A stretch of DNA of 64,000 bases from Astropecten irregularis (Eukaryota; Echinodermata; Asteroidea; Paxillosida; Astropectinidae): NCBI GenBank assembly GCA_963971285.1, contig OZ020259.1, positions 3,348,001 through 3,412,000 of the forward strand, given 5' to 3'. Shown one piece after another: positions 6,741 through 64,000 of the stretch; position 1 is the first letter of the stretch; each line of letters opens with the position of its first letter. The notes under the pieces were generated by a model, which was not told the origin of the DNA, did not search any database, and saw only the letters and a list, made by a program, of their open reading frames with translations. The position numbers and the translations under genes are program-made.

Positions 6741-9700
6741 CTGTGGAGGAAAAATAGGGTGAAATTATGACAAAGCTTGTCAAACAAAATCAAACTAAAC
6801 TTGAAAACCCTTTCTCTGCCCTTATGTGGGAAAACTTGACCTGGGGCCAATTTCATAGAGCTGCTTAAGCACATAATTTGCTTAAGCATGAAAAGTCTTC
6901 CTTGATTAAACAGTATTTCCAACCAAATGTTCATGTGGTTGTTTACTGCTTTTGATTTGCATTCGGCCATAGTTTGCTGAGCATGACATTCACAAGAAGC
7001 TTTGGCTGGCATACCGATAATATTTTTCAAGGTTTTTGGTGCTTAATGAAATTGGCCCCTGTACTAGATAGGGCTGGGCGATTGACGCTCATATAAAAGC
7101 AAATGCTGATTCTTTGGAATCAACACTGTTATGATTCATCTGCTTTCCAAAATGTGCATCATAAGAGGAGCGACTATAAAATAATTTCATTCAAATTGGT
7201 GTTTACGATTTCTGACTAAGAAGGAATCTGTTTATGTACTTTTTGTTTTCATGCGCCTTTCTAAATATTGTGCTAAATGTCAACTGCTGCAATCAAATCC
7301 ATGTCAACTGCCACATTTGGGAGTATTTATAGATGCTAGTTTCTCAAGATTGCAGTATTTCAGAGGTAAATATTCATGGCGCCGAAAGGTTTCCCTCATT
7401 CGGCAGAAAATAGTTAACTTACTCTATGAAGTCCACGCTTGTATTGGTATACATGGTAGTGAAGTTCCCGTTGGATTGAAAAGTCGCATTCATCTGCAGT
7501 TGGTGAAAACAGAACAATATCGATTTGCAAAAATAAGTACCGGGCAGGAAAATGCTTCAATTGTTCACCGTTGCCATGGAAACCGGGTCAAATCAATAAT
7601 AAATTATCAGATTGTGTCGACTTGCAAACGCACAATGCGGTTAATATCCTGACTCAAAGCGTTTTTCTCCAAAGCCACATCTCTTCAAAACGACAATGCA
7701 GGCATGTTCCTTTCAGCTTTTCTTCTTGTTCTAAATTCAGGGCTGGATTTCACAAAGCACTAAGATGAATCTCAAGATGAGTTGTTCAGTATCGCCATAG
7801 TGATTTGTATTGTGACATCACATGTTGCTTAGCAATTAAGATGAAATCACACCTAAGATCCATCTTATAGTGCTTCATGAAATCGGACCCAGGGCATTAT
7901 TTTTTTTTTTTTATGTTTCCACACCATGGCTATTGAATGTTCTTCAAGGTAAAATAGATGTTCACTATTGACCGCATTACCGGTCAATAGCGTGTACCTA
8001 TTGCATGGGGAAGGACTTACCGCATCGGTGAATTCGTCACTGAGTTTTATGTAGGCAGCAGAGTTGGCTTGGGCGTAGTCACTCACGTACGGGCGGTTGC
8101 TGATGTTGAAAGTTCCATTCAGGCTTACTGCAATATCAAAGAAACAAAAATTAAACACAATACATCACAAAAACTGACAGAAAGACAGACAACCAAATAA
8201 ACAGCGCAACGAACAGACAAACAAGCAGAGAAACATATTAACAAATCATACCTTGTGCGGTTTTAGCAATCTCGTCGTCACCTATGGAGAAAATAAAGTC
8301 AAAGAAAATATGAGAATAAGTAAATACTGTACATCATGCTTGTATAGCACAAGCAATGGGACAGAGAACCAGTTGTGAATAATGTGCTTTCCGTAGAATG
8401 TTGGGTGGGTAACCAGTGTATGATCGTATGCGAACAAAACGTAGACATGTTTTGCCGGCATAGAATATCGACGAAAATGGCACAATGTACGTGTGTTGGA
8501 TTTCACCAAACATTAAGATGAGTTGTCAATATCACCATCGTGATAGTGTACTGTGAAATTCAGTCACACTTTGCTTAGCAATTAAGATGGATTCACAATC
8601 TTAGTGTGAAATCGGTCCCTGGTCTGTAAGAAAGCAATACGCATTATTTCGAATCATTGGAAAGTGAACCGGGGCGTGATTCGAACCAGCGACCACCGGA
8701 ATACTACCGGCGCACTACCAACTGAGCTATCTAGCCCTATGCTGGCGGTGTTCCTATAATTCGCAAATTATCTTTTCGAAGTAGTGACTTACTCTGCATG
8801 ATGATGTAGCCCACCACGACAATCATCCCCACAAGCGACATGGCCATGATGACAAGCATAGCCTTGCACTGCATGGTGCCCACAGCCCGGTTGAACCCCT
8901 GGGGTGCAGGCCTGCGGTACCCGGCCGGTTCCACGTCATTCTGGAACCTGGGCGGCTGGGACGAGCCTCCCTTTCTGGGCGGCGGCTTGGCCGGCTCGGG
9001 GCTCATGCTCCGCAGGCTGGCCTCAGACGGGACGGGCGAGGGAGCCGCCGGGGTATCCTTCTTCACCGGGATGTCTTCCTCCTCTTCGTCATCCTCGTCG
9101 ATCCGCACGCCGCTGTCCGGGGAACCGCTCGCTGGCTTCGGTGTCACGGAGATGACGCGGGGCTCTGGGGTTGCCTGGCCGGTAGGCTTGCCGTCGTCGT
9201 CGGAGTCGCCCGCTGCCAGCTCTGGATGCAGGGAGGGACTGTCGCGACCGTCGTCGTCGTTTTCTTTATCTTGGCCCTCGTTCTCCAGCACGGCCTCCTC
9301 GGTCACGGCTGACGGACAATCGGCAGATGGAGACGGCGAGCTCGGAGCTGAATCACCCGGCGGTGATTCGTCGCCCAAAGAAATGTTGTCTTCATCCGCC
9401 TGCAGAAAAATAAATCGACCAAAGTCAAAACACTTTCGCAGAATACTTAACTTCCGATGACACTGTGAGGCCTTATATCATTTTGTAGCCAGGAAAAATT
9501 CAATAAAATCATCTAGGTAAAATATGCGACACCAGAAATAATTACAACGCATTTGGACTGATAACTTTGATACGTTTGCAAAGCATCGTCAATTTTGTTT
9601 TTCAAATCATCTCCAGAAATATTGCTTGCCAGGCGAAAGCAAATTCTATCGCAATTTTTCTTGCGATGAAAATAAAATGTTCAAGATAGGCCTCTTACAC

Positions 9701-12700
9701 GCTGGCTTTTCTAAGATATTTTGACTGATGATTTAGTGTGTTCCTTACACACCGTGGTAATTAAAAGAGAGAAAAAGTATTAATTTATGAATTATTTCTA
9801 AAAATACTTTTTTGTGATTTCAAATCAAGGTGGTTGTTTAAAAAGGCTATGTCCTCGTCAGTTTGTCTGTTCGTTTGAAAGTATTTTCAAAAACTATATT
9901 TTTTGTTATAATTACACTGCACCAGTCCCCGTCAGAATATTTTTGTCTGTGTGAATTAAATAATTATGCCACACCGGTTATGATTTTGGTTCCCACGCAG
10001 CATAAAATACACGTGTTCTTCAACCTTTTTTTCTCCTTTTAAAAAGAAATTCTTTCGAACCGCCAATTTGAAGAATATTTTGGAAGATAATAATGGATAA
10101 ACAAATACCAGTAAAAACAAGAAAAACGTAACAAAACAGAACATGACAAAAACAAATTGCAAATACAGAAATAGATAACTAGCAATTTACTTAGGAATTT
10201 TTTGGAAATAACGCAGACATATATACGATTATACAAATAATCATTATCCTTAGGATAATATCTATATACCCAACAGAGTGAAAACTTGACTGTCGATTGT
10301 TTTTTTTTTAATAATTTCTATAAAATAAAATCCTCATAATAATGACCTATGATAATTATGGCGCACGACCAAGAATGGCTGTTTAGGACAAGTGTCTTTT
10401 AGCCATCAGCAGCTTGACGAAGGCGATTCAACCTACGCGCGAGCCACCGATGACGTATACCGCGCGAGCAACCTATTTGCAAGGATGAAATTGTGTGTGA
10501 AAAATGAAATAAAATGACATGAACCTTTCTAATATCACACTAGCCTATCGGGATCCTCTCTTTGTGGTTTCACCGCCCTATTGCATGCTTTCTCAGTTTC
10601 CCTGGTCACTCTGTCCCCCTTTGTTCTGATCCTCTCATCCATTTATGTGTATCTTCACTTGCATATATCTTGTCCTCTTGTCATTTAGCCTTTCAGAAAC
10701 ATCCTGCTGGGATCCAAACGACATGCACTCCTAACTCATGCCATAATTATTTCAGGTCATTATTTTGGCTGATGAGCAGTTTGGAACGGTTGATTACTTA
10801 TATTGTTTGAGACATATGCCAAATGAGTAAAACATAATTTACAATGAAATTAAGTTTATTGCTCATCTTTTTGTTTTGTTGTTAATACATTAGTGCATTA
10901 TTAATATAATAATATAGCGAGAGCTGCCTTGTGTATTGTCTTTATATAAACAGAATGCTTGGCCTGTTAAAGAATCGGTCATGCAGGCGTTCCAGATATG
11001 ACATTGCCACTGGAGAAAGAAAAAAAAACCTCTCGCTCAACGAAATAGACAGTTGTGCAACAGGCAAGCCAATCAAATTACCATTGTCATCTACCTTGAA
11101 CGGTTTCCGGCAGCCGAATTCATAACCAACTCGACTTTTAAATGCTGGACCCGAGAGACAATACCCAAAATTATCGACCCCTTTCCAAACAATGGTTCCA
11201 ACCAAGCCAAGCCAGCGCGCGTGTGGCGGTAAATATTGATGCGTTACCGTGGCAACTGAAATGCGCCAGGGCCGTTTTTTTAATACTCGTGTTGAACGCT
11301 CGGATGGGCAGGAACAAAATGCGTTTTAAGAGTCGACCTCGGGTGTTAATGGGGACTGGTATTTGTTTTTATCATTTTGTTTATTTGTGCTTATCGGTTA
11401 TAGAATTGGGGACGACAAAGAAAAGGATCCATAACTAATTATTGTCAACGCTATTTCTTATTTATGTGCTATCTGTTAATACGTGCAATGGTTATGCATG
11501 AGCATTGTGGCACAACAGTAAAAATTAAAGCAACAGCATCAGCAGCAACAGATAATTTTGACAGTGCGAGTTTGTGCATGGGTCGACCGTGATGAGTTCA
11601 CGTATAAAGCTTCGTCCTAGTTCGTCTTCGTTTATTTTTGTTCCACTGATGAATTAGATACATTCTTTGGAATGCCGAGAATATATAATTGCAGCTTATC
11701 AGCCGATTTGTGTAATAGGTGTTTCATTTTGTTTAAAGTGTTTTGTTGTCTTTGTTTTTTCTGTAATGGGGCAACAATTGATTCAGATAATGTTTGTAAA
11801 TAAGATGGTAAATAAATTTTGAAATATTTCAAATAAGACTGCTGAATATCTATGTATACATGTACATGACATGTATTTTTTTTTTTAATAAATAAAATAT
11901 CAAGAAACAAAGTAAAACAAGAAACAAGGACAATAACAGCAAAAACAACAACAACAATGCAAAGTCTAAACAAACAAAACGAGAATAAAATCAAATACAG
12001 AATAGGAATATGTGGAGAGTTTTGAAAAAAAAAGTCTTCGTTTTCTGAATTGGCAGGTTGAATTTGATACCCATCTCGAAATGACCACGCTTCACTGAGA
12101 ACTCATCGTTTGAGCATGCTCATAATGACGTCATAATGCACACACCCATTTCTCATGATTCTGACATGTTACAAATACATGCAATCATGTTTTAAAAATG
12201 TACAAATGGGTACATTTGTGTACTTCTCTCCAAATTGGATGCTCTGTTTCGATTGATGTAATAAAGATACATTTTGGAGAAATTTTAGTGAGCAGTTCTA
12301 AACGTGCATGCGTCCTTTACTTTCTCCCAACTCATTCTTACGCTCTAAAAAACGAACCGCTAAATATAACACTGAATCTTGTACGTGAAGTGCTCGTCAT
12401 TAAGTAGCATTTGATTTTTAGAAATTAGTTTATCCGGTAAATTTTGCAATTGCAGTTGTCCCTGATTTTTCTCTCGTTGTTGACATTTCTTTAACTTTCA
12501 CTTTGATTAAATACAAGTAATAAACTCAATACAAGTAATAAACTGCTGCAAACTGCTCATCAATTTATAAAAATGCTTGGAGTTGGAGCTTGGAGGGCCT
12601 GACGCGTTTCGATCCTATTAGGAGGATCTTTCTCAAAGGCTACTTTGATATTTTATTACAAACAAATCACACACACAAAACAACACAAAACAACTCACAG

Positions 12701-15700
12701 AAAAACAGACAAACACCCCAACAAACAACCCGATTTCGATTTTGAATTTCAATTCAATTCAATTTAATTCAGATATGCCTAAACATTTATTTCCGCCCTT
12801 CTCAGTAGAAGGAAATATAGTACAGCAAATCACATAGTTATTTGAAAAAATAATATTGAAAAAAAAAAAAACAGAATAATATTGGAAAAGCTCCAAAACA
12901 GATTTGGAGTGCTATTCCTCAAGGAATGCAATGAAATTCACTAGGCATCTGAACATCACTGCATTTTATTATTGAGAGAGAGAGAGCGAGGTATGGCGAT
13001 TCCATGTGACTCACTGCGCATGCGTGGCAAATTCACTCTCCCGTGGAGTAGATTGCTTCATATTTATACATTTCATAGCGAACAATTGGTATCCATGGTG
13101 ATCAGAACACCTAAAAAAAAAAACATATATCAACAAGGGCGTTTTTTTGCCAACATCGCAGTTGCCAAAAACGTGCAGCGTGTGTAATATACTTGCGCAT
13201 GGACGAGTGAGCGCGTAATGGAGTCCTATAGAAAATAGACCGGTTGTTTTATATCGATCGTGCCGATTGGTCCAGCACTCGACCAATCAGATTGCTCGGA
13301 TTGTATTGGAATCGAGAATCGCTATATTAACGGCGATTATTTTGACCTTAGCGGGAAGACACGTTCGCTGTTTTGCTAGGCCATGCGGACATAGAATTCC
13401 ACATCTTCATTGTCAAGTAAATTCGGTTTACAAAATCTAAGCCTACTAGAAGGAGAATATCGAATTTTGTTCCACTTTAGTTTTGGTTTTGGTTTATTTT
13501 GGCAAACCAAACAGGCAATACGCGTCAGTTAACTTAATATACAGGAATACATGGAGACACAGCATATAATTTAATGAGGAAGCAATCCAGTAATTAAAGA
13601 GATATTTTGCAGAGCATAACACAATAAAGTCAAAGTCTTAATGTAAATTTTGATCGTCTGAGTGAAAACAAGGTATATAATACAGAGCACAATTTCATCA
13701 GGATTTTTTATTATGAATTAAAGTTATAATACATGATTGGAAAAGGTCACAGAGCAGCATTCACACTTTGTCTAATCCAGCATGTGCATGATAATGATAC
13801 CTGTGGAAGTTTGAGCTCAATCGTACATCTGAGTCACGAACAAATAGCGACAAGCCTACTAAATCATAAACATAAAGAATGGTTTTGATCTTACCCCGAG
13901 ATCTAAACTGTTTTCGGTCATTGTTTGATAAATTTCTGGATAAATACACAATTTCAGGCGGAAATATTTTAACGGTATATGTTTATATCAACACCATCTT
14001 TATACCCTGAAAGTTATGTGTTAATCTGTGAACATTATTTTCAAGTTTGGGTATGTTACTAATCCTGTACTCTACCTTTAAAGAATCAGAATATTTATTG
14101 CGAAATAAATACACGACATTTGAATTAAATTCCTCTTCCTTACATTTCGCTCATAATTGAGAAGTCGAGGGGGGGGGGGGGGGGGGGTTGACCCAATTTG
14201 GATGTAGACAGTCCAAACGGGCAGTAAATTCATATGATAAAGGTTGCAATAGTTGACCCTTAGGGCAGTGGCAGTTTCCACCCTAAATAGGTACATTTAC
14301 CCTCCCCTATATTTCTTCATTGTGTCTTAAAGTCAATGTATACAGCATCTGTAAATATGACAGCTGCAGGCTGCTCATAATTTGTTTTGTCATTCAATAA
14401 AAACAGACCTGTGAAACTGTCAGCTCAATTGATCATTGGAAACTGTTGAAAAAAAAACAACCCCAAAACAATGCAAATGTTACGCCAAATTGTCAGGGAA
14501 TAGCTGTCTCATTTTTGATCTTCTGAAGATCAAAAAGGTTTTGCTGTATGGTTTTACACTTGTCTGGATAAATACAGCATTTCATAGCAATTACCGTTTC
14601 TACCATTACCGTCACTCTTTATAACCTGTAAGTCACGCGTAAATGTGTAAACATTTCTGTTTTGGTTTGTTTCCAATGTTGTTTTGACCTCATAAGAATT
14701 GCTTAAAATTGCATTACATAATGTGAACACAGTCCCTAAACCGTCATTCTTGGGAGGTTCATACTTTATTGCTGCCTAATTTAGCAATGTTGTATTAATT
14801 TCAACTGAAGCATTTTGTGTTTATTGTACGTTAGACCTGGCAATTTACTCAGTCTCTCATTTCATATAATTTATGTTTCCATGTAGCGGTATACCTGCAG
14901 GGATACATGCTTAGATCTATCCAGGGTTCGTCGGGAACTTGTGATTGGACGCAGAGGCGCCGTGTATACTACATGTGTCTACCACACTCAGGTGAGTTGT
15001 GTGCTACACGTTAATTATTTCATATTGTGCGTGTGTGTGGTATCGCATCTCCATTGCCATGGCAACGCTCTCATGCCCCCGGCGACATGAAAGCCTCTCT
15101 GTGTGTTATTTGCCCCTACCACTCATTATTGACGTCAGCATGACGTATGAGTGAAACAAGATAATGTACATTATTATAAAGATATGGTATAGAATTGATA
15201 ATAATCAAAGTATAATATTGTTAATTTTGTTAGGAGAATACTTACTTTAAATATGATAAGAGAACACAATTTTTATTTCTTTTTCCTGCAAATTAATGTG
15301 GCGCTCCGAAATACAAATTGAAAAAAATAATGTTGGGCTGCAAATATGGACCGGTGACGGTCTATAGTTAAGTTTTTGCTCATCAATTGTTGGCGGAAAA
15401 GCAACTTTACAGGAATGCTTATTTCTTGTTGCTTATTCGTTACAAATTATGGCGATTGTGCAAACGCGCGATATATCTGTCTTACGTTTACATACATAAT
15501 TCTGTATGTTTGGATGTTAATAGCTGTGCTGGGGTCAGGACGAAAATAATATGTCTCTGCAGTCCTTAAAGGAATTAGTATCATACTTTGGTAAGAAACC
15601 AAAACAGAAATGTTCACAGATTTACGTATAACTTACAGGGTATGAAGATGGTGCTGGTAGAAACATACCGTTAACATTGTTCCGCCTGAAATGGTGTATT

Positions 15701-36300: not shown

Positions 36301-39300
36301 TCAAATGTTGAGACAAAAATGAAAAGATTCGAGTGTTTAAATGAATGGATCTTAACACGCTACATGGAATGAAGAATGAAAGATCCTCTAAGCTTACGGA
36401 TCTTTTGAAGTCTCTCTCCACTGATAGGAACTCCCTCGACGATCTGTCCTCGTATGAAGTAGAATATTTTAGGCCGAAGATCTTAACCTCGCCCCGTATC
36501 GCCACTTGACAACAAAAGGCAAAACAAAATTACGAACACAAAAATAACGAAGTGATAAAACAAAATTAATCATAAAGTAATAATAAAGTAATCAAACAGT
36601 AATCAAATCCAAAAATAAAAATCCAGAATGACGAACAAGTTTGCATAATCTGGAATAATTTTCACCTCAAAATTAGTTCAGCAAACTTGTTGAGTTTTTG
36701 TAATGAGCTTGTTTTGGTGTTTTTTTGAGTTTTTTTTCCAGACGTTAAGATATTTTTAAGACCAACTTGAAGTTGTATTAACGGTTGGTTGTATAATATG
36801 ATAACGAGAACATTTGCATATCATATAATCTCCAAACCAAAATCGTTTAATATTCATGAGAAAACTTACCTTCCTCCAGAGATTCACTGGGTGTCCCCGT
36901 GCCTTGAAAGAAGAAAATGCCCCGAATTTATGAACGAAGAAAAACAGCAAACAATTTAATATGATAAGAAAGAAAGAAAGAAACAGAAGCAATTTTAGCA
37001 AACATTTTGACTGGATGTTATTTTTAAGCAGCGTGTCTGCCGCCCTCTGTCGGAAAATAGCAACCAGCATCTTTAAACCACTGTTGGTGACTCTTGCGTG
37101 TACAGGCGGTCTATGGATTTCGTGTACGTAATAATTGGCACAATTTGTCACACAATGCATGTTTCATATACCTTTACTGCATACTTCTGAAAAGGTCGCT
37201 GTCCACGAAAGGGTCTATGCTGGCAAGTCACACTTGCCAAATAACACAGAAATATGAAGAAAAAATGTGAATCAGAACACACCTATTATTCTGGATAAGT
37301 CCCCATAAGTAGCAACCAAGGCGACGCCCACGACCACAAGAATCAATGCAGCCGTCGCCGTGCCCATGCCGCATAGGACCACGAACCGGGCCCGCTTAAA
37401 CTTGTGCCTCTCTGGTGGCAGGAACATGCTGCGGATGTCCGCGCTGAACGAGCGCAGCTGCTTGCCGGACCGATCCGCCCTGCCGTCGTTGGCGCGCTCC
37501 GGGTCCGCCGAGCCCGTCTTGTCTCCCAACTGGCCCGGGGACAATGGCTCATTATTCCCGGCCAGGACATGGACCGATGCCGGTCGGTCGCCCCTGTCCC
37601 GTGAAAGACCGCCAGTGTCCACTGACACCGGGATTTGTCCTGCCGTTCTTCCGAGTTCATTGCTTCTCGTTTCACTGGTTGCAGACATTGGCTGACCGAA
37701 GGTCGACAACTGCAAGTATAGCAAGATAAAAGGCCATCACTGGCAAAACCACAACTTGAGGATTTGGGGTTCTACTCCGAAATTTACACCTCATTTTTGT
37801 CTCCTAAAAATTCGATGCCATGGCACTCTGAAGTTTAGATAAAAGCTCAAACGTTTTGCCTTCCTCCTCATCGAAGGCCCTAGTTTTAGACACAAATGGC
37901 CTTCCTCGAAAATGCTTACAAAATTCATTCTGAAACATGTGACGTTTATAATACATGTAGGTATAAAAGACGAAGCCTCGGTCGAGTTTTGGCAAAGGTC
38001 CACGTGTTCGTCTGTAAACAAAGCCCTCTTGGTGTCAACGCCCTCTTGTGCCAATATAATGCCAGTCCAATATCCAACAACATCCCCATGGTACAGCCCT
38101 ACATTGAAAAAAAAAAACTATCGCCAAGCTACCAAATCAATTTCAGGTTTACCTTGCTTTTGGACAGATTCAATGCCGGTCCATGGGCTATGTATTTGCA
38201 TTCTGTAGACGCGGTGGGAGTCGTAGAAGAAGAAATCTGCGGCGAACCAGCGCCGCCCGGTGGACCAGCGACACCCACATTATTCGATTCCTCGTTCGAT
38301 GTGAAAATCCCAGAGTCGATACCGTCATTTGCATTTTCGTCTGTAAAGCTCCTGCTTTTTGGTTGTCTGAATGTTGTCAACTGTAGGGAAAATTTGATAT
38401 TTGTACAATAAATGCATTAGCATAATGGATATTGCTCGAAAATGTCATATTTTATCAAATGAGGGCGCTTGGCTGGCGAGCTGGAAAATGACAAAGTGTG
38501 CGAACAATGAACTCAAAATTATATCTTGTACTTGAATAATTATAAAATTCGAAATGATTTCAATTAAATGAATTACATTGCCGAAAATGAAGGCAATTGT
38601 TTGGTTAAGCTGTAAAGAACGTTTTGGTGGAATAAAGCAGTTCTCTAGATGAAAGTGCAAAATGATACAAAGCCGTAAACAGTGACCTCGTGGGCCCATG
38701 CAAATCAAACACTATTGCGGTCACCACCTCAGTTGGTAGAGCGCCTGCATGGGCGTTGATCCCGGGGGGCTAGGGGGGTTGCAACCCCCCAGGTTTTCAC
38801 TTTTTATATATATAAAAAATGATTTTGTGCACAAACGTATATGGAAGTACGACCCAGCTACACGATCACCCCCCCCCCCCCCCGCCACCAGGTCTGAGGA
38901 CGTGTCTACACTACTGAGTGCCTGTACGGTATTCAGGAGGTCGCCGGTTCGAATCCCGCTCGAGTCAATTTTTCTTTCTTCACTTTTCAATAACACCATG
39001 TGCTTATAAAAAATGTGATCGATGCAGTTTAATATTTCAAGATGAAATCTGAAATTCACAGAAAAAAAAACTTAAACGCACTTGCTGTGTTTGAAATTAA
39101 CCTTAGTCTGATACATCTCACTGCAGCTATTCTGATCACACGAATGAGTGAATTTTGAAGAAACAGAGGATTACGATGTTGGACACGATAACTTTACTTC
39201 ACCAAGTATCCTCGGTACCTTGTGGAGTTTGGCTTGTTGAACACATCCTTCAACAATAATAAATCCTGAATCTATTTTCAACTTTCCGGATCCACGTTGA

Positions 39301-45300: not shown

Positions 45301-48300
45301 CTCACACCCCAACCCACCCCCACCATCCGGGCGTCTCAAGTTTACCTTCAGGGGGATCGTCACGTTTGAATTTGATCGTTTTAAAGGACCTGGGTCTTAA
45401 ATCAAAATTAGTATACGGTTGTAGGTACAATTATGATCCTGACACATTGTTGTGTCTTCTGTATGTATTCCAATGGAGGAGCACATGTGTTCTAACATGG
45501 GAATAGTATTTTTGAGCCACGTGGTCTCCCTGGCGGCCAACTATTTTCCGAGTCGACTGAAACGAAATCCCATGGCTTGGAACCTACATCAACAAGAAAC
45601 CCCTGGTTTGGATCCTATGAATTAAAAGCTAGAAGAACTTGGCTTGGAATTTCTTTAAAGAATTATAACAAACCCTTGACTTGGAACTTATATGAATAAG
45701 AAACTCCATGGCTTTTAACCTATAATAAATAAGAAACGTCATGGCTTCGAACCTTTATGAATAAAAATAAACATGTCTTGGAACTTGAATACAATATAAG
45801 GAACTCCATGGCTTTGAACCTGCACTGTATGGTGAATAAGAACCCCATTGGCCTGGAACCTTTAATAAGGATCCCCATGGCTTAGAACCTTTATGAATAA
45901 GGAACCCCATGGCTTGAAACCTATAATGAATAAGAAATCCCATGGTTTGGAACCTATAATGAATAAGAAATCCCATGGTTTGGAACCTATAATGAATTAG
46001 AAACCCCATGGTTTGGAACCTATAATGAATAGGAAACCCCATGGCTTGAAACCTATAATGAATAAGAAATTCCATGGTTTGGAACCTATGATGAATAAGA
46101 AATCCCATGGTTTGGAACCTATAATGAATTAGAAACCCCATGGTTTGGAACCTATAATGAATAGGAAATCCCATCGTTTGGAACCTATTATGAATAGAAA
46201 CCCCATGGCTTGGAACCTATAATGAATAGGAAAACCCCATGTTTGGAACCTATAATGAATTAGAAACCCCATGGTTTGGAACCTATAATGAATAGGAAAT
46301 CCCATGGTTTGGAACCTATAATGAATAAGGAACCCCATGGTTTGGAACCTATAATGAATTAGAAACCCCATGGTTTGGAACCTATAATGAATAGGAAATC
46401 CCATGGTTTGGAACCTATAATGAATAGGAAAACCCCATGGCTTGGGACTTATATGAATATGGAGCCCCATGGTCTGACACCTATAAGGAATACTAAGAAA
46501 ACCCATGGCTTGGAAATGATATGATATAAATAAGGGGTCCATGGCTTGGAACCTATGTGAATATTAACACCACATGGCTTGGAACAGATCAGGAACCACA
46601 TATGGCTAATTGGAATCTATAAGAAACGACTTGGCTTGAAACCTTTATAAATTAAAAATAAAACATGGCTTGGAACTTTAATGAATAAGAAGCCCTTTGG
46701 ATTGGAACTTGTGTGAATGCAATTTTTTGGTCATTGCAGGAATCGCCCATGTGTAAACATGACAGCAAAAAGAAGTACGCCCACCAGCTCCTCCCAAGCT
46801 CCTCCCCCAATAACTATGCCACCAATGCTGCTCACAACGAGGTCAGCAGGAGCTCGTGACGTCACAAAAAGTGGCCTGAAATTCATATACGTTTAAGGTC
46901 GCATAACTGTGATGGTGTGTAATTTTACGGTACGGTACGGTTTATTATTTTACAATAATAGGCACGTTAACAACTATTTACGTTATTTGGAGTTGATGAT
47001 GCTATCAGCCGAAACAAAAGTAGCACATGGTGTACTTTAACCCTTAATTATTGTCGGGTCGGCTTTAAGTCGGTCAGCGCGACTCTAATATCACGTGACA
47101 GCATTAAACAACGCCCTCTTTTTATACAACGCGCTCATCTCCCCGTGTTGAAGTGAGAAAGCCGTTGGTTACAATGTCATTTCTTAAACACTGTTTTTCT
47201 GGCTCTTTAGTCAACTTCAGTGGCATATGCACTGTCCTTGCTCTAGTAGCCAAACTCCCAGGTTTGGAGCGACCCCTCTCACCCCAACCAATTAAATAAA
47301 AAAGACAAAGGATTATTGATGGCGTCGAAATAGCCAGTGAGCTGTTACATGTGCACTACTAACAAAAAAAAGAACACGATTTACAAACGTCCATCCGTCA
47401 TCGTGGTCCCTGTAATTCAGCTGCGATTATCGTCCACTTAACAGCGAACAGCCGTTGGCGATGAGAGATACGCGGACAACATAATTTCACGAATACAGAA
47501 ATATTGCAGCCTTACGAAAGGGTGTTGATCCCTCTTAAGGGTATGATTTAAGCGGTACGTGTTTCAGCCCCATGCGGTGTTTTTTTCTTTCCTTGTTTAT
47601 GGTTCCTTTTTTATTAAACTTAAAGAATTTTATCACATAATAACAAATTGGTCTAACAATTTATTGCGTGTGTGTCACGTGGGTCTTTCATGTGTCACAG
47701 GTCCTTCGTTTTGAAAATAATATTCCATTCCTTTGTCATTTTCCAATAAATCAAAGAAATAAATGAACACAGCAAAAATGAAGATAGCAAAGACATGCAC
47801 GAAGATAACAATAGAGCTGGTGTTTAGCCCAGTCCGTGAACCTGAGACCCATGTCACGTGATGCGATGATAGCCAATCATTTCCAGGCTTATATCTCCAC
47901 GACGAAATAACATTCATCTTTTAATTTCCATCTTTTTGTCTAGGAATGATAAGCCACTTCCCGGAAAAAAAAATAGCCAGTGCTTCCTGAGTTTTTCCCT
48001 TTTTTGCGTGGATGTCTTTAAAGGTATATCTGTAATACATGATTGATAAAGGTCACAGAACAGCACTCACACTTTGGCTGATCAAATATGTGCATGAAAT
48101 AATAAACCTGTGACAATTTGAGCTCAGTAGGACATCCGAGTCATGAGAAAATAGCGAAAACCCGACTAAATTTTTCTTATAAAACATAAAGAATGGTTTT
48201 GATCTTCCCCGAGATCCAAACTGTTTTCGGTCTTTGTTTTACTAATTTCAAGATAAATACACCATTTCTGACGGCAATAATTTAATGGTATGTTTTTACC

Positions 48301-52479: not shown

Positions 52480-53170
52480 AGATCCCTGCCCCTGTCCACT
52501 GCCCCTTCCGCTACCCCTGCCACCTGCAACCTGCCCCTTCCCCTATGCCCTTTCCCCTGCAACCTGCCCCTTCCCCTCTGCCCCTGCCACTTTCCCCCTT
52601 CCACCTGCAACCTGCAACATGCCCCTTCCCCTATGCCCCTGCCCCTTTCCCCCTGCCACCTGCAACCTGCCCCATCCCCTATGCCCCTGCCCCTTTACCC
52701 TTGCCCCTTCCCCCCTGCCCCTGCCCCTGCCACCTGCAACCTGCCCCTTCCCCTATGCCCCTGCCCCTTGCTCCCTGCACCTGCCACCTGCCACCTGCCC
52801 CTTCCCCTATGCCCCTGCCCCTGCCCCTTTCCCCTGCCCCTGCCACCTGCAACCTGCCCCTGCCCCAGGCCTTTCCCCTGCCCCTTTCCCCCTGCCACCT
52901 GCAACCTGCCCCTTCCCCTATGCCCTTTCCCCTGCCCCTGCCACCTGCAACCTGCCCCTTCCCCTATGCCCATGCCCCTTGCCCACTGCCCCTGCCACCT
53001 GCAACCTGCCCCTTCCCCTGTGCCCCTGCCCCTTTCCCCTGCCCCTGCCACCTGCAATCTGCCCCTTCCCCTGTGCCCCTGCCCCTGCCCCTGCCCCCTG
53101 CCCCCTGCCCCTACAACCTGCCCCTTTCCCCCTGCCCCCTGCCACCTGCCCCATTCCCCTGCCCCCTGTT
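52480..53170. repeat. C-rich satellite, CCCCTGCCCCTT type
   Basis: About 690 bp of irregular units built from CCCCTGCCCCTTCCCC, CTATGCCCCTG and CCACCTGCAACCTG. Frames in all directions stay open because of composition. The minus strand is G-rich with many G-runs and could form quadruplexes. Confidence 0.9.
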
Positions 53171-53811: not shown

Positions 53812-54260
53812 ATAACCACAATGGAACCTGACTGGTCACCACCAACGTAGGGCTGGATGGCTCAGTTGGTAGAGCGCCTGTACGGTATTCAGGAGGTTGC
53901 CGGTTTGAATCCCACTCCAGTCAATGTTTCTTTATTCACTTTTCAATGACTTAAAACTCAGTCAGTTTTCCTTGTGGTTATTTCACGAATATATTGATTA
54001 AAAAGCCGTATCCTCTTGGAGTGATCCCCCATGTGCCGTTCCCAGGTTGCAGCATTGTTGCGTGTATCATTGAAACGATTCCTGGGGTGTGGCGGTGTGT
54101 GCGTGGTTTCATGGCTTCTGACTGCCAAACGAACAACGATAGTTGACTATTGGGGTCACCACCAACGTAGGGCTGGATGGCTCAGTTGGTAGAGCGCCTT
54201 TACGGTATTCAGAAGGTCGCCAGTTCGAATCCCACTCCAGTAAATTTTTCTTTGTTTACT
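53812..54260 (+). repeat. composite repeat with two SINE heads
   Basis: tRNA-like heads at 53850-53925 and 54168-54242 each follow CACCACCAACGTA. Between them are TTCCTTGTGGTTATTTCACG, AAAAGCCGTATCCTC and GTGGTTTCATGGCTTCTGA. In the head at 53850 the acceptor arms (GGCTGGA / TCCAGTC) still pair. It is a sister of 24821-25110. Confidence 0.75.
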
Positions 54261-57190: not shown

Positions 57191-57562
57191 TTATGGGCTA
57201 TTGCCAAAGTAATCATAACTGCGCCATTCACTTAATCATTGCTATACGTCGCTAATGTTAAGATGGTTAGAGATCCACTGAGCCAAAAATCGGATCTAAA
57301 CTGATCAAATAGTTGTATTAATATTGCAATAGGATAGGCCCACTCGTGTATGTCCGCGTTCAATGGAGAACAAAGTTTGCGGCAATATGCTCGGGGTACC
57401 GTCGGTTTTCCGCCCATCAACTTACCGTAACTCTGCGAACAATTCAACGCCAAACATCCCCTATATTATACATAATAATAAGCCCTTGATTGCTTCCAAA
57501 AATCCCAAACCAGGATGCTCGTTCAAACATTTCACAATATTTCGTTTCGCTATGACTTATCG

Positions 57563-57568
57563 TTTATT
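57563..57568 (-). promoter_or_regulatory. candidate poly(A) signal for gene 3
   Basis: AATAAA on the minus strand, 112 nt past the stop codon at 57680. The region is AT-rich, so this is weak. Confidence 0.3.
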
Positions 57569-57679
57569 CGAAATTATATATACTTCACGTAATCAGGTCT
57601 CTGACACCTTATGTTCCAATCACACTTCGTCAACACAAAAGAAACCTGCACCATTATTTAAAGGTACTTACTGTTAAAT

Positions 57680-57721
57680 TTACATGTCCTCCTCTGAACT
57701 CGATGATTTCCCATTTTTTCC
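57680..57721 (-). CDS. gene 3 terminal exon
   Basis: After the acceptor GCTATTAG, phase 0 reads GKNGKSSSSEEDM and TAA. A good donor (GTAAGT) follows at 57671-57666, so a 50-nt internal version (57721-57672), open in phase 1, is the alternative. Confidence 0.45.
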   Translation of the reverse strand, partial: GKNGKSSSSEEDM

Positions 57722-60700
57722 CTAATAGCGAGAAATGTGAAAAATGAAATCTTTTGTAATGATTCTTTAACTCGTTTAACGAATGAATTTGAAACCAAAC
57801 AGTACGGCTTTAACACAGGGCATGTGCATCCAAATTTTGCCAAAATAATTTGTTATCAATTTCCAGTTCAGAGTCACGGTGATAATTTCTTTTCAATACT
57901 GTCCACACTATACATTTGCCATTTACCTAACCGTTAACACGTCCCTCATTTTAAAATTGGAGAGAGATCCAAGTACAAAATTTGAGCCAAACTTATTAAA
58001 AATGCCTGTATTAACATTGCAAAGTGTTGCTCAACGTATTCGGTGAACGGTCAGCGCATTATGATTTGATTCTCCTCCCATACACTCAACGTATAACTCA
58101 GCGAACAAAAGCCAAACATACTTTAATTTCAACGTATAATTAGCCCTTGATTTCGTCGAAAATCCTGAAGCAGAACAGGTTTTAAATTTGCTCATTCGAA
58201 CATAATATCGACATTTTGTATTATGAAATGTCGTTTCGTTATATCATTCTAAAACTGCATGCATGATGTAATGTCTCTGTATAGAGAAACCTGGATCAAG
58301 CTACTCACCTCTTTCGATTTTTTCCCATCATCCTGTGTTAATAGCGAGAAATGGGAAAAATCAAATCTTTTGTAATGATTCTTTAACTCATTTAACGAAT
58401 GAATTTGAAACCAAACAATCCGGCTCTAACACGGGGCATGTGCATCCAAATTTGGCCAAAAATAATTTGTTATCAATTTCTAGTTCAGAGTCACGGTGAA
58501 TATTTCTTTTCAATACTGTCCACACTATACATTTGCCATTTACCTAACCGTTAACACGTCCCTCATTTTAAAATTGGAGAGAGATCCAAGTACAAAATTT
58601 GAGCCAAACTTATTAAAAATGCCTGTATTAACATTGCAAAGTGTTGCTCAACGTATTCGGTGAACGGTCAGCGCATTATGATTGGATAACTCCGCGAACA
58701 AAAGCCAAACATACTTTAATTTCAACGTATAATTAGCCCTTGATTTCGTCGAAAATCCTGAAGCAGAACAGGTTTTAAATTTGCTCATTCGAACATAATA
58801 TCGACATTTTGTATTATGAAATGTCGTTTCGTTATATCATTTCAAAACTGCATGCATGATGTAATGTCTCTGTATAGAGAAACCTGGATCAAGCTACTCA
58901 CCTCTTTCGGTTTTTTCCCATCCACCTGTGTAAGTAGCGAGAAATGTGAAAAATCAAATCTTTTGTAATGATTCTTTAACTCATTTAATGAATGAATTTG
59001 AAACAATTTAAGTGATTTCCATGTGAATGCATTCCATAATTATATCACTTATTCGGAGAACAAATTTATAATACAAAGTTTGCGGTATCATGCTGGGCGT
59101 TCCGTCGAAAAGACCGTTCTCCGTACACAACATATTGACTACTGAAGATACAGTCCTTTAGTCTAAGAACGCACCCTCTAGCATGTACAAACTCTGACCT
59201 CTATAGAAAATTGGAAAATTTGGGACAAAAAAGTTTGTCGGTAAGTATGTATTGCCCAAGAATTTTCGCATTTCAAAACACGAGTGATTCTGGCAATCTT
59301 GAAATTTGAATGGCAATGGCAAAATGTTTCAGGAACATTATAAACTAGAGAAAGTAGGCAATGCAGGTATAGTAAACAAATAAAAGTATAATTATAGTCA
59401 AAGGGTTTGGACATCAAGTGTCAACAAAAAATCGAGCAGGGTCGAAGTAAACATGTTCATCGTCGTGGCGTTCAAATGGGACATTGGCTTTTGTTGTAAT
59501 TCCTTACCAAAAGATTGTCAATCTCCTGCCCAAAGTCCATTTATTAATCTCGCATTTGCACAATGTATAATGACTAGCTGTTATAATACAAAAATCACAT
59601 CCACTTAACGTAACCCTGCGAACAAAAGCCAAACATACTCTAATTTCCACGTATAATTAGCTTTTGATTTCGTCGAAAATCCTTAAGCATAACAGGTTTT
59701 TAATTTGCTTATTCGAACCTGGATCAAACTACTCACCTTTTTGCAGTCCTTCGGTAGTTTCCCGTCCACCTGTGTTAATAAACCGTGTTTTATTTGTTTT
59801 ACCGTACCTCATAAATAATTATTCACCATTTCGTCTAGATCGGTATCAGTGACTGCAGCAAAAATGTTCGTGTTCGTGAGCCGCCACTCACTTCACGTAC
59901 AAGTAGGCAGAGGCTCACGCACGTGCGCTGGAAACTTTTCCTAGGATGCGCAGTGAGATGTTACATGTGTAACAGTTCCTTCTGAGATTCACCGGCCTAC
60001 TAGCTAGTGATTAGCAAATATATCCACTGGCACGTGATGGTGAATTGACCAATTGATACTCGGCTATAGTTCATGAATATTTATGAGGTATTGTAAAAGC
60101 TCTTATCACACCACAGTTACTACTGGTTACTAGTACTTACCAAGCAATTGCCCTCTTGGAACAACGACTGTGTAAATTGTGAAATGAAAAATACGAAAAA
60201 TCTATAATTACTGTTTGAATGTCGATATTGTTAATCAGAAAACTGACCATTATTACACGTAATCATGACCGATGGCGTTACTAGGGAAGTGGGGGCTAAG
60301 GGGTGCGCATTCCCCAGGCAATCAGACATTGTCTGTTCTGATTATTTTATGATAGGAAACATGCATGCTTTGAGCTAGGAGGGCCTGACGCGTTTCCATT
60401 CTTGCAGGATCTTTCCCAAAGGCTAAATGACAAGAGGACAAGAACATTGTTTTATAGATACATGAATAAATATAAATATATATACACAAAAATGGATGAG
60501 ATGATTGGGAGGAAAAGGGGTATGGAGGCGGGGGTATGTAAGTGTCCTCAGACAGAGAGGGAACTGGGACTAACAACGAAGGACCGTCTCCTCGGGGCCA
60601 TACCAGAAAACCCAATCTTGGCCTACAGACGTCCACGCAACCTCCGGGATTATTTTGATTGTCAGGGCTGAGGTCCCATTCACTAATAATGTTTCTTCCC

Positions 60701-63328
60701 CAATCCAGCACGGTACTTTTAAATGCAATTCGAGATGTGTGGTCATCCCGGACCACATCCAGTAGACTGATTCTTAAACATGCAATGGCTCCATGCACCA
60801 ATAAGACCAAAGGGAATATTACATGGGATAAATCTTATGTTATTTCATCATATCTCTGTTTTGCAGGGTATGCAACAACATTCAGTATGTGGGGAGACCA
60901 AAAACACCCTTAAGAAACGATTCTATGGTCACATGTCCACAGTCAAAACTCAGAAACCCGACACCCAAGTTTTGTGACCCTTGTCTTAGGGAAAGCCATA
61001 GCTGTTTCCAGAAACCGCTGACAAGGTAGTTGTACTGTTGGAGTTATTGGAAATCGAATCCATTTGAAAAATTTAATTTCAAATTGTCTGCTTTGAGGAA
61101 GTTTTTTTATTTAGTTCAACGCCATCGAAACTTAAAATTAAGGGCGCAATATTACCGCTTGCCCGGATTTGCAAGGCCTCCAAAAAATGTATTGAGTTTG
61201 AGACAGAAAGTGGACTCAACAGTTGGTAAACAGTGCAAACAGTCACCATGGGAAATATTGGTTCATCAGATGCAGGGGTTTTCAAGGAAATCAAAATTGA
61301 GTGTCTTTTCCAAATATGGTTCGTCCGAACGATTTTTGGAACATGTTTGATCAGACAAAGTATGAATGCTGTCCTGTGACCTTAACCAATCATGTATTAT
61401 ACCTTTAAGGACGGCCCTGCGTATTGACAAACACGAGGACATATCGTATTTAGGGCCAACATCTTGTATATGTAATATCAACCATAACATGAACTAAGCC
61501 AGTAGTTAAAAACCTGATAACGTTTCATAACTGCACATTGTAATTTCCCTGCTATGTTCGTGTCACATCCCACATTAATTGTCACACTGAAATCCGGATC
61601 AAGGTACTTACGTTCATACGAAAGCAATGGCCGGGCCCGAGGCTTTTTGCGTCCTGTGTAGATAGCGAAAAAAAAAACATTTGAAAATCCAGTAGATTTG
61701 TATTGCGGTTTGCATACGAAGTTATTAATAAGAAGACCAAGCATTCAAGTTAGTACACCTGACAGAGCTTTGAATGAGCATGCCACACGTTACAAAAATA
61801 AAAGAAAAATAATGCCGTTGGTACTTACAATGCAAAGACAATTATCCTGTTTCTTCTGTGTAAACAAGAAAAATGCGAAAATCAAGTATTACTGTCTAAA
61901 TATCGAAGTAATTAATGGCAAAACAACTGACAATATTACACACAATAATAATACGTTTTAACAATCATAAGGACATGTCTTTGTGGGTCAAACATCATGT
62001 ATATAGCGAATACAACCACAACATGAACGTTTTCGAGCAGTTTTGAACAGAATATCGTTTCAAAACTGCAAAATATAGAGTCCCTGTCATTTTCGTATCT
62101 ACACACTATATAACATCGCACTAGAAACCTGTAACAAGGTACTTACTGGTTCGTATATGCAAAACATCGGAAACGTGGACCACTGTGTAAATAGTGCAAA
62201 AACATGTGAAAATCGAGTATTACAATTTGCTTACGAAATTTGCTTTCCAAATAGACAAATGTAGAGAGTGTAGTGTAAATATGGGTCGCATTATTCTTAA
62301 GCTATTAACTTTACAAAAAAAATTGTTTGGAAATAATTTACCTTCATTCAAATTTACCTTCAAAAAAGGGTAAACAAAGGGTACAAAGGTAAATAAGTAT
62401 TGTGACATGCATATGGAATTGGTCTTGAGGGTTGTTCAATTTCCTTTTTTCCTCTCCAATTTGTGCACCCAACAGTATTATTCAAAATCATCTTCAAAAT
62501 GATAATCAAATATCGGAGAACTTTCATTGAATGATGCACTGCAACACAGATAAGCACAATGTCAACCCATGTGAAACTGTACGACACATAATAGCATCCG
62601 TAGGACTTTGTGTACAACTCTTTTGAGCAAACTATCAGACAACGCATTTATGCTACGCATTCTAAACACACGCCCAGTTCATAATTGGAGGGTTCTACAA
62701 ACGGCAGCAAATTTTCACAATCTTACGAAGTCACCTTCATGCCGAAAACAATAATATGCGTTTGAATGATTTGGCCCTAATCACGTGGCCAATGGCGGCC
62801 CTGTCAGAACCCGCGTATTGAACGCGCGTCCAATTTTAAGTTCTACAATGGCCATTGCTTGTTCGGAAAACTTTCTTGCTGCACATGGACGCGCTAAAAC
62901 GTCACATGATGAGGCGACGCACATGGGTAGAATGTAATAGGCAACATCAAATTAGCAGAGTCAAATTGCCAATGTCTTCATAACGTTTCTCAACGTAAAA
63001 TCCCATTCGAACTTGAATACCCACTGGAACTTACATCCTTTTCAATTTTGTGTTACCTCATTCACGTGACTAATGGCAGCCCCACACTGAATGCGCGCCT
63101 GATACGCGTTTCCCATCCAGTGTTGAATTCTTCTGATAAATATTGTCCCCTCCATGCTAACTAACATTCGCATACGCACTGAATTTGCCCGCTTACAACA
63201 TGCATTAGTTGCTAAATTCATCCCTTCGTAAAAACGTTTTGCTCTAAACTCATATCTGCCCTTTGATTTTGCATCACAAAGATCAATGAACTTACTTCGA
63301 TTACACACATATGATCCTGGCCCGATAA
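57680..63328 (-). CDS. gene 3: micro-exon gene (3' part), product unknown
   Basis: Gene-level entry. Nine small exons: 63328-63296, 62182-62147, 61855-61829, 61653-61612, 60167-60141, 59769-59737, 58925-58902, 58332-58309, 57721-57680. The eight internal ones are 33, 36, 27, 42, 27, 33, 24 and 24 nt, all multiples of three. All but the outermost use a TTTACACAG- or TTAACACAG-type acceptor with GTAAGT or GTGAGT donors. Phase 0 is open in all of them, whereas each other phase hits stops in some. The first five blocks each hold Cys flanked by hydrophobic or aromatic residues; the last are Lys/Asp/Gly-rich; the end is acidic. The 5' part, with any signal peptide, lies beyond 64000. The layout recalls schistosome micro-exon genes, but no homology is claimed. 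It could also be non-coding micro-exons. Confidence 0.6.
58309..58332 (-). CDS. gene 3 micro-exon, 24 nt
   Basis: Acceptor TTAACACAG, donor GTGAGT; reads DDGKKSKE. Sister of the exon at 58902. Confidence 0.6.
58902..58925 (-). CDS. gene 3 micro-exon, 24 nt
   Basis: Acceptor CTTACACAG, donor GTGAGT; reads VDGKKPKE. It differs from its sister at 58309 at three or four bases. Confidence 0.6.
59508..59525 (-). CDS. possible 18-nt micro-exon of gene 3
   Basis: Acceptor TTTGGGCAG, donor GTAAGG; reads EIDNLL in phase 0. The acceptor lacks the ACACAG form of its neighbours, so this is weak. Confidence 0.2.
59737..59769 (-). CDS. gene 3 micro-exon, 33 nt
   Basis: Acceptor TTAACACAG, donor GTGAGT; reads VDGKLPKDCKK. 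Its first half matches the 24-nt exons, and the DCKK end is extra. Confidence 0.6.
60141..60167 (-). CDS. gene 3 micro-exon, 27 nt
   Basis: Acceptor TTTACACAG, donor GTAAGT; reads SLFQEGNCL. Confidence 0.6.
60370..60990 (+). pseudogene. Penelope-like retroelement remnant with GIY-YIG end
   Basis: After a terminal-repeat fragment (60370-60425) the plus strand reads PENPILAYRRPRNLRDYF, the conserved segment after the reverse transcriptase. A frame change leads to IVRAEVPF and a Cys-bearing spacer, then VCGETKNTLKKRFYGH, the GIY-YIG nuclease signature. Several stops and frameshifts show it is dead. It sits in a gene 3 intron, antisense to it. Confidence 0.7.
61612..61653 (-). CDS. gene 3 micro-exon, 42 nt
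   Basis: Acceptor TCTACACAG after a T tract, donor GTAAGT; reads DAKSLGPGHCFRMN. The longest of the internal exons. Confidence 0.6.
61829..61855 (-). CDS. gene 3 micro-exon, 27 nt
   Basis: Acceptor TTTACACAG, donor GTAAGT; reads KKQDNCLCI, the only block with two Cys. Confidence 0.6.
62147..62182 (-). CDS. gene 3 micro-exon, 36 nt
   Basis: Acceptor TTTACACAG, donor GTAAGT; reads WSTFPMFCIYEP. Most hydrophobic block. Confidence 0.6.
63296..63328 (-). CDS. gene 3 micro-exon, 33 nt (most upstream in window)
   Basis: Acceptor TTGACACAG, donor GTAAGT; reads LSGQDHMCVIE in phase 0. Phase 2 is also open here (IGPGSYVCNR), so the frame rests on the other exons. Confidence 0.55.
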
Positions 63329-64000
63329 CTGTGTCAAACAAATAATAAAAACATGTGAAAATCGTGTATTACTGTTCGCATGTGACATTGTATCATTAAA
63401 TGACCTATGCTTTATTCCCAGAATTCATTATAATGTTAATTGGTTAATAATTACAGATCTTTTCATTAATGTGATGCAACGGTTTGTCATTTCCCAAGCA
63501 ATGGTAAATAAAAGCACATAAAAATAGAAAGTTGAATATCGGTGTATACTTTGGTTATGAACACAGTGCATGTTAGCTTCATAGTAATGCATGATTGTGT
63601 GTGACAACACGAAATGCCATTAGCAATTCTTCGTCAACAAGAGATCCTGTACTGTTGCAGTCATGCAATCAGCTGCCTTAACACAGGATTCTGAATGATT
63701 AATTAGCATAACGTGTCACCCAATCACTTGTTTGGACCAATGGGGGATCTTCGATGTGACAACATTTTTAACCAATGGGACATCTTCTTAGTTAGAAGGA
63801 TGGCATGATGGATTAAGGAAATGTATTTGTATAGGTCAGTTTTGCAACAGCCTTTATAAAGTTAACGTACAGACTTTTACAAATTGTAAACTTTTGTGGA
63901 CCCACCTGTACCCCATATCCACCTTGAGATAAGTGATTTATGAGGAAGGGATTTGGGCATTGTGCTTTATAGCATCATCAAATTATAATTGGTTTTCTGT
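63329..64000. other. edge region, upstream intron of gene 3
   Basis: No exon with the array's splice signature was found up to the window end. A TTTATAAAG word at about 63853-63861 is TATA-like but has no matching coding start. Confidence 0.4.

Follow-up and report, generated by a model that had tools for sequence, protein, structure and literature searches.

The best-known micro-exon genes are those of schistosomes, which use them to make variable secreted proteins. Near one end of the 64,000-nucleotide stretch of Astropecten irregularis DNA analysed here (the window), the minus strand carries a run of exon-like segments of 24–42 nt, raising the question of whether these are the exons of a gene of similar design, how such a run could have come about, and what kind of product it would encode.

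A chain of symmetric micro-exons on the minus strand

Between positions 63328 and 58309, the minus strand holds eight internal exons, followed by a terminal coding piece with a stop codon. In order of transcription, these exons lie at 63296–63328 (33 nt, LSGQDHMCVIE), 62147–62182 (36 nt, WSTFPMFCIYEP), 61829–61855 (27 nt, KKQDNCLCI), 61612–61653 (42 nt, DAKSLGPGHCFRMN), 60141–60167 (27 nt, SLFQEGNCL), 59737–59769 (33 nt, VDGKLPKDCKK), 58902–58925 (24 nt, VDGKKPKE) and 58309–58332 (24 nt, DDGKKSKE). An earlier note on this DNA had described eight minus-strand internal exons of 24–42 nt, all multiples of three, most of them with (A)CACAG acceptors and GTAAGT or GTGAGT donors, and a phase 0 that stays open through all of them, and each element of that description is borne out: 8/8 lengths are divisible by three, CACAG precedes all eight exons, GTAAGT follows exons 1–5 and GTGAGT exons 6–8, and the joined exons are open throughout in phase 0, with stops in both other frames. 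The intervening introns measure 1113, 291, 175, 1444, 371, 811, 569 and 587 nt. The longest of them, intron 4, holds pieces of dispersed repeats at 61341–61412 (also seen at 13718 and 48014) and 60365–60443 (also at 10668, 12583 and 27407).

Scored with approximate weights, the splice sites of the eight exons are plausible but uneven, with acceptors at 3.0 to 10.8 bits and donors at 5.7 to 12.2 bits; weak acceptors precede exons 1, 5 and 6 (4.5, 3.0 and 3.2 bits, respectively), and the lowest donor of the eight is that of exon 3 (5.7 bits). The combination of sites is nonetheless far from what chance would produce. CACAG–GTRAGT pairs separated by 15 to 60 nt occur eight times on the minus strand from 57.6 to 64 kb, whereas 0.096 are expected from 500 first-order Markov simulations, none of which gave more than 2. 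On the two strands of the remaining window, a single further pair of this kind, 37 nt long, was found. For exons 1–6, with the near-identical copies 7 and 8 left out, the probability that all lengths are multiples of three is 1/729 and that of a stop-free phase 0 is 0.019 (base shuffles of the exons), giving a product of about 2.6e-5. A looser weight-matrix scan of the array region returned 15 candidate pairs, where 4.9 would be expected from 50 shuffles, none of which gave more than 12. Seven of the 15 are known exons, exon 3 being missed because it falls under the donor cut-off. The other eight candidates include a single stop-free segment with a length divisible by three, at 62776–62735 (GQIIQTHIIVFGMK); its acceptor is weak, the profile built from the array units misses it, and it is probably due to chance. 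Searches for RNA families between 57 and 64 kb gave no match up to E=1.

The coding part of a probable terminal exon 9 lies at 57680–57721 on the minus strand (42 nt, GKNGKSSSSEEDM and an in-frame stop) behind a TATTAG acceptor, and an AATAAA at 57563–57568, 112 nt 3' of the stop on the same strand, is a possible polyadenylation signal, albeit a weak one, as this is a common word in AT-rich DNA. Unit 9 has no CACAG, and the 7–9 alignment suggests that this acceptor and the start of the exon were lost, with TATTAG serving instead; from the new acceptor to the donor-like site, unit 9 spans 50 nt, which is not a multiple of three. Given the missing CACAG acceptor, the gene might end at another place. 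On its 5' side, the 64-kb window showed neither a further coding exon upstream nor a signal peptide, and the gene runs off the window at position 64000. The array of nine exon-plus-intron units as a whole occupies 57370–63389 on the minus strand, which marks the limit of visible homology (nhmmer units and repeat families D1–D11), and it may extend past 64000.

In the peptide, a Cys is present in each of exons 1–6 (two in exon 3), followed by one to four residues, a regularity (6/6) with a p-value of 0.00055 in stop-free shuffles. The earlier placement of a Cys between hydrophobic residues in all five upstream exons holds for exons 1, 2 and 3 (3/5); in exons 4 and 5, a hydrophobic residue is found only after the Cys. 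Likewise, the last four blocks had been set apart as a charged group, but exon 6, which was assigned to it, has a Cys too. Exons 7 and 8 have no Cys; at the Cys site they fall 9 nt short of exon 6. The tail of the peptide is Lys-rich and then Ser/Glu-rich, with a Lys-rich motif kept in exons 6–8, and exons 1–5 are too diverged to be recognised as repeats of one motif. When the joined 95-residue peptide was compared with a protein database, which probably holds few spliced eukaryote proteins, no match at E≤1 was found among 44 word-sharing candidates of 0.55–1.75 times the query length, a range that would not take in a far longer full-length relative. The best matches in PDB (intelectin-1, E 0.82) and Pfam (SLR1-BP, E 0.5) were dismissed as noise. 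No described counterpart was recognised in the open-access literature, a weak statement for a search made without a species name.

Paralogy of the units and divergence of their exons

As judged from the sequences that surround them, the exons of the array are paralogues, and their recognition as such is new in the present analysis. Local alignment of the 45 nt before CACAG gives scores of 11–26 for all ten pairs of exons 1–5, and nine of the ten exceed 12.7, the 99.9th percentile of 256 comparisons between exons 1–8 and 32 other acceptor-like sites in the window; the acceptor flank of exon 3 resembles those of exons 1, 2, 4 and 5, and that of exon 5 those of exons 1–3. Some pairs of control sites outside the array score up to 45, and these lie in a mucin-like repeat (31.4–34.3 kb) and in two other repeat pairs. 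Homology extends into the introns. The alignment of introns 2 and 4 covers about 215 nt and has identical bases at 155 of its 205 ungapped positions (76%), and intron 6 is homologous to introns 7 and 8. Among the 36 pairs of stretches after exons that were examined, 2–4 reaches a z of 16.8, and all six pairs within units 6–9 are homologous (z of 18.8 for 6–7, 19.1 for 6–8, 55.7 for 7–8, 7.5 for 6–9, 12.0 for 7–9 and 10.8 for 8–9). Unit 2 bridges both groups (z of 5.2 with unit 9 and 3.4 with unit 7), and for the stretches after exons 1, 3 and 5 the same 36 pairs reveal no clear homologue (highest z 3.2).

Units 7 and 8 are near-identical, at a spacing of 593–617 nt, with 573 of 592 aligned bases in common (about 97%), and units 7–9 are about 93–98% identical over most of their length. 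Furthermore, an nhmmer profile of units 1–8 recovers those eight, by construction, together with unit 9, which had been left out of the profile (E=4e-4), and finds nothing below E=0.35 elsewhere in the 64-kb window. The homology of flanks and introns thus argues for growth of the array by tandem duplication, each time of exon and intron together, most likely in an older round that produced units 1–5 and a younger round that produced units 6–9.

Against this shared background, several exons appear to have changed more than the DNA around them. Copies 2 and 4 have introns with 76% identity and exons that resemble each other no more than shuffles do (z 0.3), whereas all 15 overlapping 36-nt intron blocks give z of 3.8–7.8 and the upstream flank gives z of 4.7–5.2. 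Between copies 7 and 8, differences are found at 3 of the 24 exon sites versus 16 of the 568 sites outside the exon (Fisher p=0.037), and all of the exon differences change the amino acid, replacing V by D (two changes) and P by S (one change). Copies 7 and 9 differ at 4 of 22 exon sites versus 3 of 73 outside (p=0.048, from a gapped alignment), and copies 6 and 7 at 4 of 24 exon sites versus 13 of 135 intron sites (p=0.24), their exons being still alike (z 4.8). Exons 6–8 as a group stay similar to one another (z 2.9–6.9).

Pairwise comparison of exons 1–5 gives exon z of −0.7 to 1.6 versus 1.3 to 6.6 for the 45-nt upstream flanks, which are longer than the exons themselves, and these flanks may be conserved by splicing itself. 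For pairs 1–3, 1–5, 3–4, 3–5 and 4–5, blocks of exon length reveal no similarity of exon or flank beyond the splice sites, and it is with 45-nt blocks that their upstream flanks reach z of 1.3–5.0. As the stretches after exons 1, 3 and 5 are without clear homology, the strong contrast between exon and intron comes from pair 2–4. A general rule by which all exons outpace all introns is not claimed, five pairs being uninformative at exon-length blocks and copies 6 and 7 giving p=0.24. Taken at this value, the comparisons, which are few, partly marginal, and strong in pair 2–4 only, suggest diversifying selection on the exons. Together with the paralogous flanks and the homology of introns, these signs of exon change outpacing introns support the exons as real, and the sequence gives strong support to reading the array as a chain of symmetric micro-exons.

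Other coding and repetitive sequences in the window

Several further coding sequences lie on the minus strand of the window. A Ser/Thr-rich repeat ORF of 1497 aa (34510–30020) ends in a weak Frizzled-type match that falls below the Pfam cut-off, an exon with an EGF-like domain (28546–28400) scores above it, and a second partial Frizzled-type match (27442–27005) is again below the Pfam cut-off, although it has matches among solved Frizzled structures too (best E 1e-5); a protein database comparison of a Frizzled-type exon gave no relative among 8 candidates. Two ORFs, at 37736 and 9477, resemble membrane-anchor exons, as judged by eye. A type II membrane mucin-like gene, composed of a putative anchor, the Ser/Thr repeat, the EGF-like domain and the Frizzled-type sequence, is possible between 27005 and 37736 on this strand. 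An acidic ORF at 8740–9477, also on the minus strand, forms a 246-residue exon with an apparent membrane anchor at its end, and one relative of this exon (P0001, 252 aa, 38% identity) was found among 1449 candidates in the protein database. Viral contigs scanned for an intron word and for the 246-residue exon gave no match.

The window is also rich in dispersed repeats. Two Rfam tRNA matches on the plus strand (53851–53923 and 478–550), uncalled by ARAGORN, lie within dispersed repeats and are probably the heads of tRNA-derived SINEs. A minisatellite at 45564–46718 repeats a 33-bp unit about 25 times and has minus-strand open frames of about 150 codons. Some 680 nt of imperfect CCCTGC-type repeats (52484–53168) contain long open frames, which probably do not represent genes.

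Competing readings of the array and its significance

On balance, the array is probably the 3' part of a gene in which duplicated phase-0 cassette micro-exons are variably included, yielding a family of short proteins. In such a gene, transcribed from the minus strand, the coding sequence would be a run of tiny, frame-neutral exons derived from one ancestral exon that was duplicated in tandem, with its flanking intron, again and again. Each exon starts and ends between codons, so that including or skipping any one of them leaves the frame unaltered, a property already pointed out in the earlier note and confirmed here from the sequence. Exon-like structure, paralogy, symmetry and the open frame can thus be read from the DNA itself, and transcription, alternative inclusion, secretion and selection for diversity are inferred. 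Several of the presumed cassettes have weak acceptors, and variable inclusion would make short related proteins from modules of 8–14 residues, with Cys in modules 1–6 and a tail that is Lys-rich and then Ser/Glu-rich. With less certainty, the protein may be secreted or exposed at the surface, and its peptides may face a changing target (a partner, microbe, parasite or host), because the exons seem to change faster than the introns.

All exons might instead be constitutive and encode the repetitive tail of a protein that is intracellular or part of the matrix, with symmetry kept only because a tolerated duplication needs it. The genes for elastin, titin PEVK and troponin T, which have small symmetric exons in series, some of them alternatively spliced, are the model for this reading, which we regard as possible though rather unlikely. 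Any tolerated duplicated exon is expected to be symmetric, and the Lys-rich motif and mutual similarity of exons 6–8 accord with such a tail. Exons 1–5, however, vary in length (27–42 nt) yet stay multiples of three and, unlike the exons of those genes, are too diverged to form a single repeat, no common motif being visible any longer; several acceptors are also weak by the approximate weights, and weak acceptors are often found in cassette exons. To our knowledge, the composition of the array, with Cys in exons 1–6 and later Lys-rich exons, resembles no repeat-exon gene. An array of duplicated units that are no longer used, decaying and unexpressed, would account for the divergence of exons 1–5 to the level of shuffles and for the state of unit 9, with its missing CACAG acceptor and the 50 nt between its new acceptor and donor-like site, but it is improbable, as the other eight units all retain acceptor, donor, a length divisible by three and an open frame. 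It is hardly credible that these are chance splice-like motifs within a repeat or mobile element: although the window abounds in dispersed repeats and units 7–9 are so nearly identical, the unit profile has no copy outside the array within the 64-kb window (next match E=0.35), and eight sites are present against 0.1 expected, with lengths that are exact multiples of three.

Several known systems of small exons come closest to the array. The proteins of aphid bicycle genes carry a CYC motif, which is absent from the array peptide. Bicycle genes are described as having a rapidly evolving coding sequence and numerous small internal exons, of which nearly all are in phase 2 (PMC9168663). The array likewise has many small internal exons nearly all in a single phase, which apparently change fast, but phase 0 is its only open frame. 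The schistosome micro-exon genes (MEGs) offer a closer parallel of construction. As far as the available passages describe them, Schistosoma mansoni MEGs have exons of up to 81 bp and introns of 0.1–5 kb, and most MEG micro-exons measure 15 bp (PMC10526429); MEG micro-exons are defined in one paper as being under 36 bp and are flanked by two long exons, the 5' one carrying a signal peptide (PMC4671649); and transposable element insertions have been reported in them, with one element-linked exon duplication, in MEG-3 (PMC4350168). In the array, as in these genes, very small exons follow one another, most of them divisible by three in length, between introns of 0.1 to several kb (PMC10526429; PMC4350168; PMC4671649, in the parts available). 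In the in-window part of the gene, most of the coding sequence is in very small, mostly symmetrical exons, as in MEGs (8/8 internal exons). Under the 36-bp limit (PMC4671649, same passages), six of the eight qualify, exons 2 and 4 measuring 36 and 42 nt. Paralogy is seen here across all exon units, whereas the MEG passages at hand mention the one MEG-3 duplication.

True membership in the schistosome MEG superfamily is very improbable all the same. The exons of 24–42 nt and introns of 175–1444 nt fall within the ranges given for S. mansoni, and MEGs have also been described with a more Lys-rich C-terminal part (PMC10526429, available passages). None of the eight exons, however, has the length of 15 bp that is commonest among MEG micro-exons in those passages, searches of the protein database (within its length range), PDB and Pfam gave no sequence similarity, and the Frizzled-type, EGF and mucin-like exons nearby, though suggestive of an animal, do not point to flatworms. 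The array matches the published ranges for schistosome MEGs in its exon–intron design, and it is not classified here as a member.

If the array does belong to a gene with duplicated, variably included cassette micro-exons, its significance would lie in how it was built and in what it could make. A bolder version, which we advance as a tentative and rather doubtful proposal, is a locus of peptide diversity that stands apart from the known micro-exon families. Its Cys-bearing modules would have multiplied as exon-plus-intron units, diversifying selection would replace their coding parts faster than the intron around them, and eight or more cassettes would be spliced combinatorially into secreted variants; were it true, eight optional exons of one gene would allow up to 256 products. 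The recognisably homologous introns show how a micro-exon chain can grow, by duplication of exon plus intron, and the array allows a test of whether selection changes the peptides rather than the surrounding DNA. In plants, annotation is reported to overlook microexons of up to 15 nt with ease (PMC8831610). Since very small exons are so easily overlooked, similar genes may be present unseen elsewhere.
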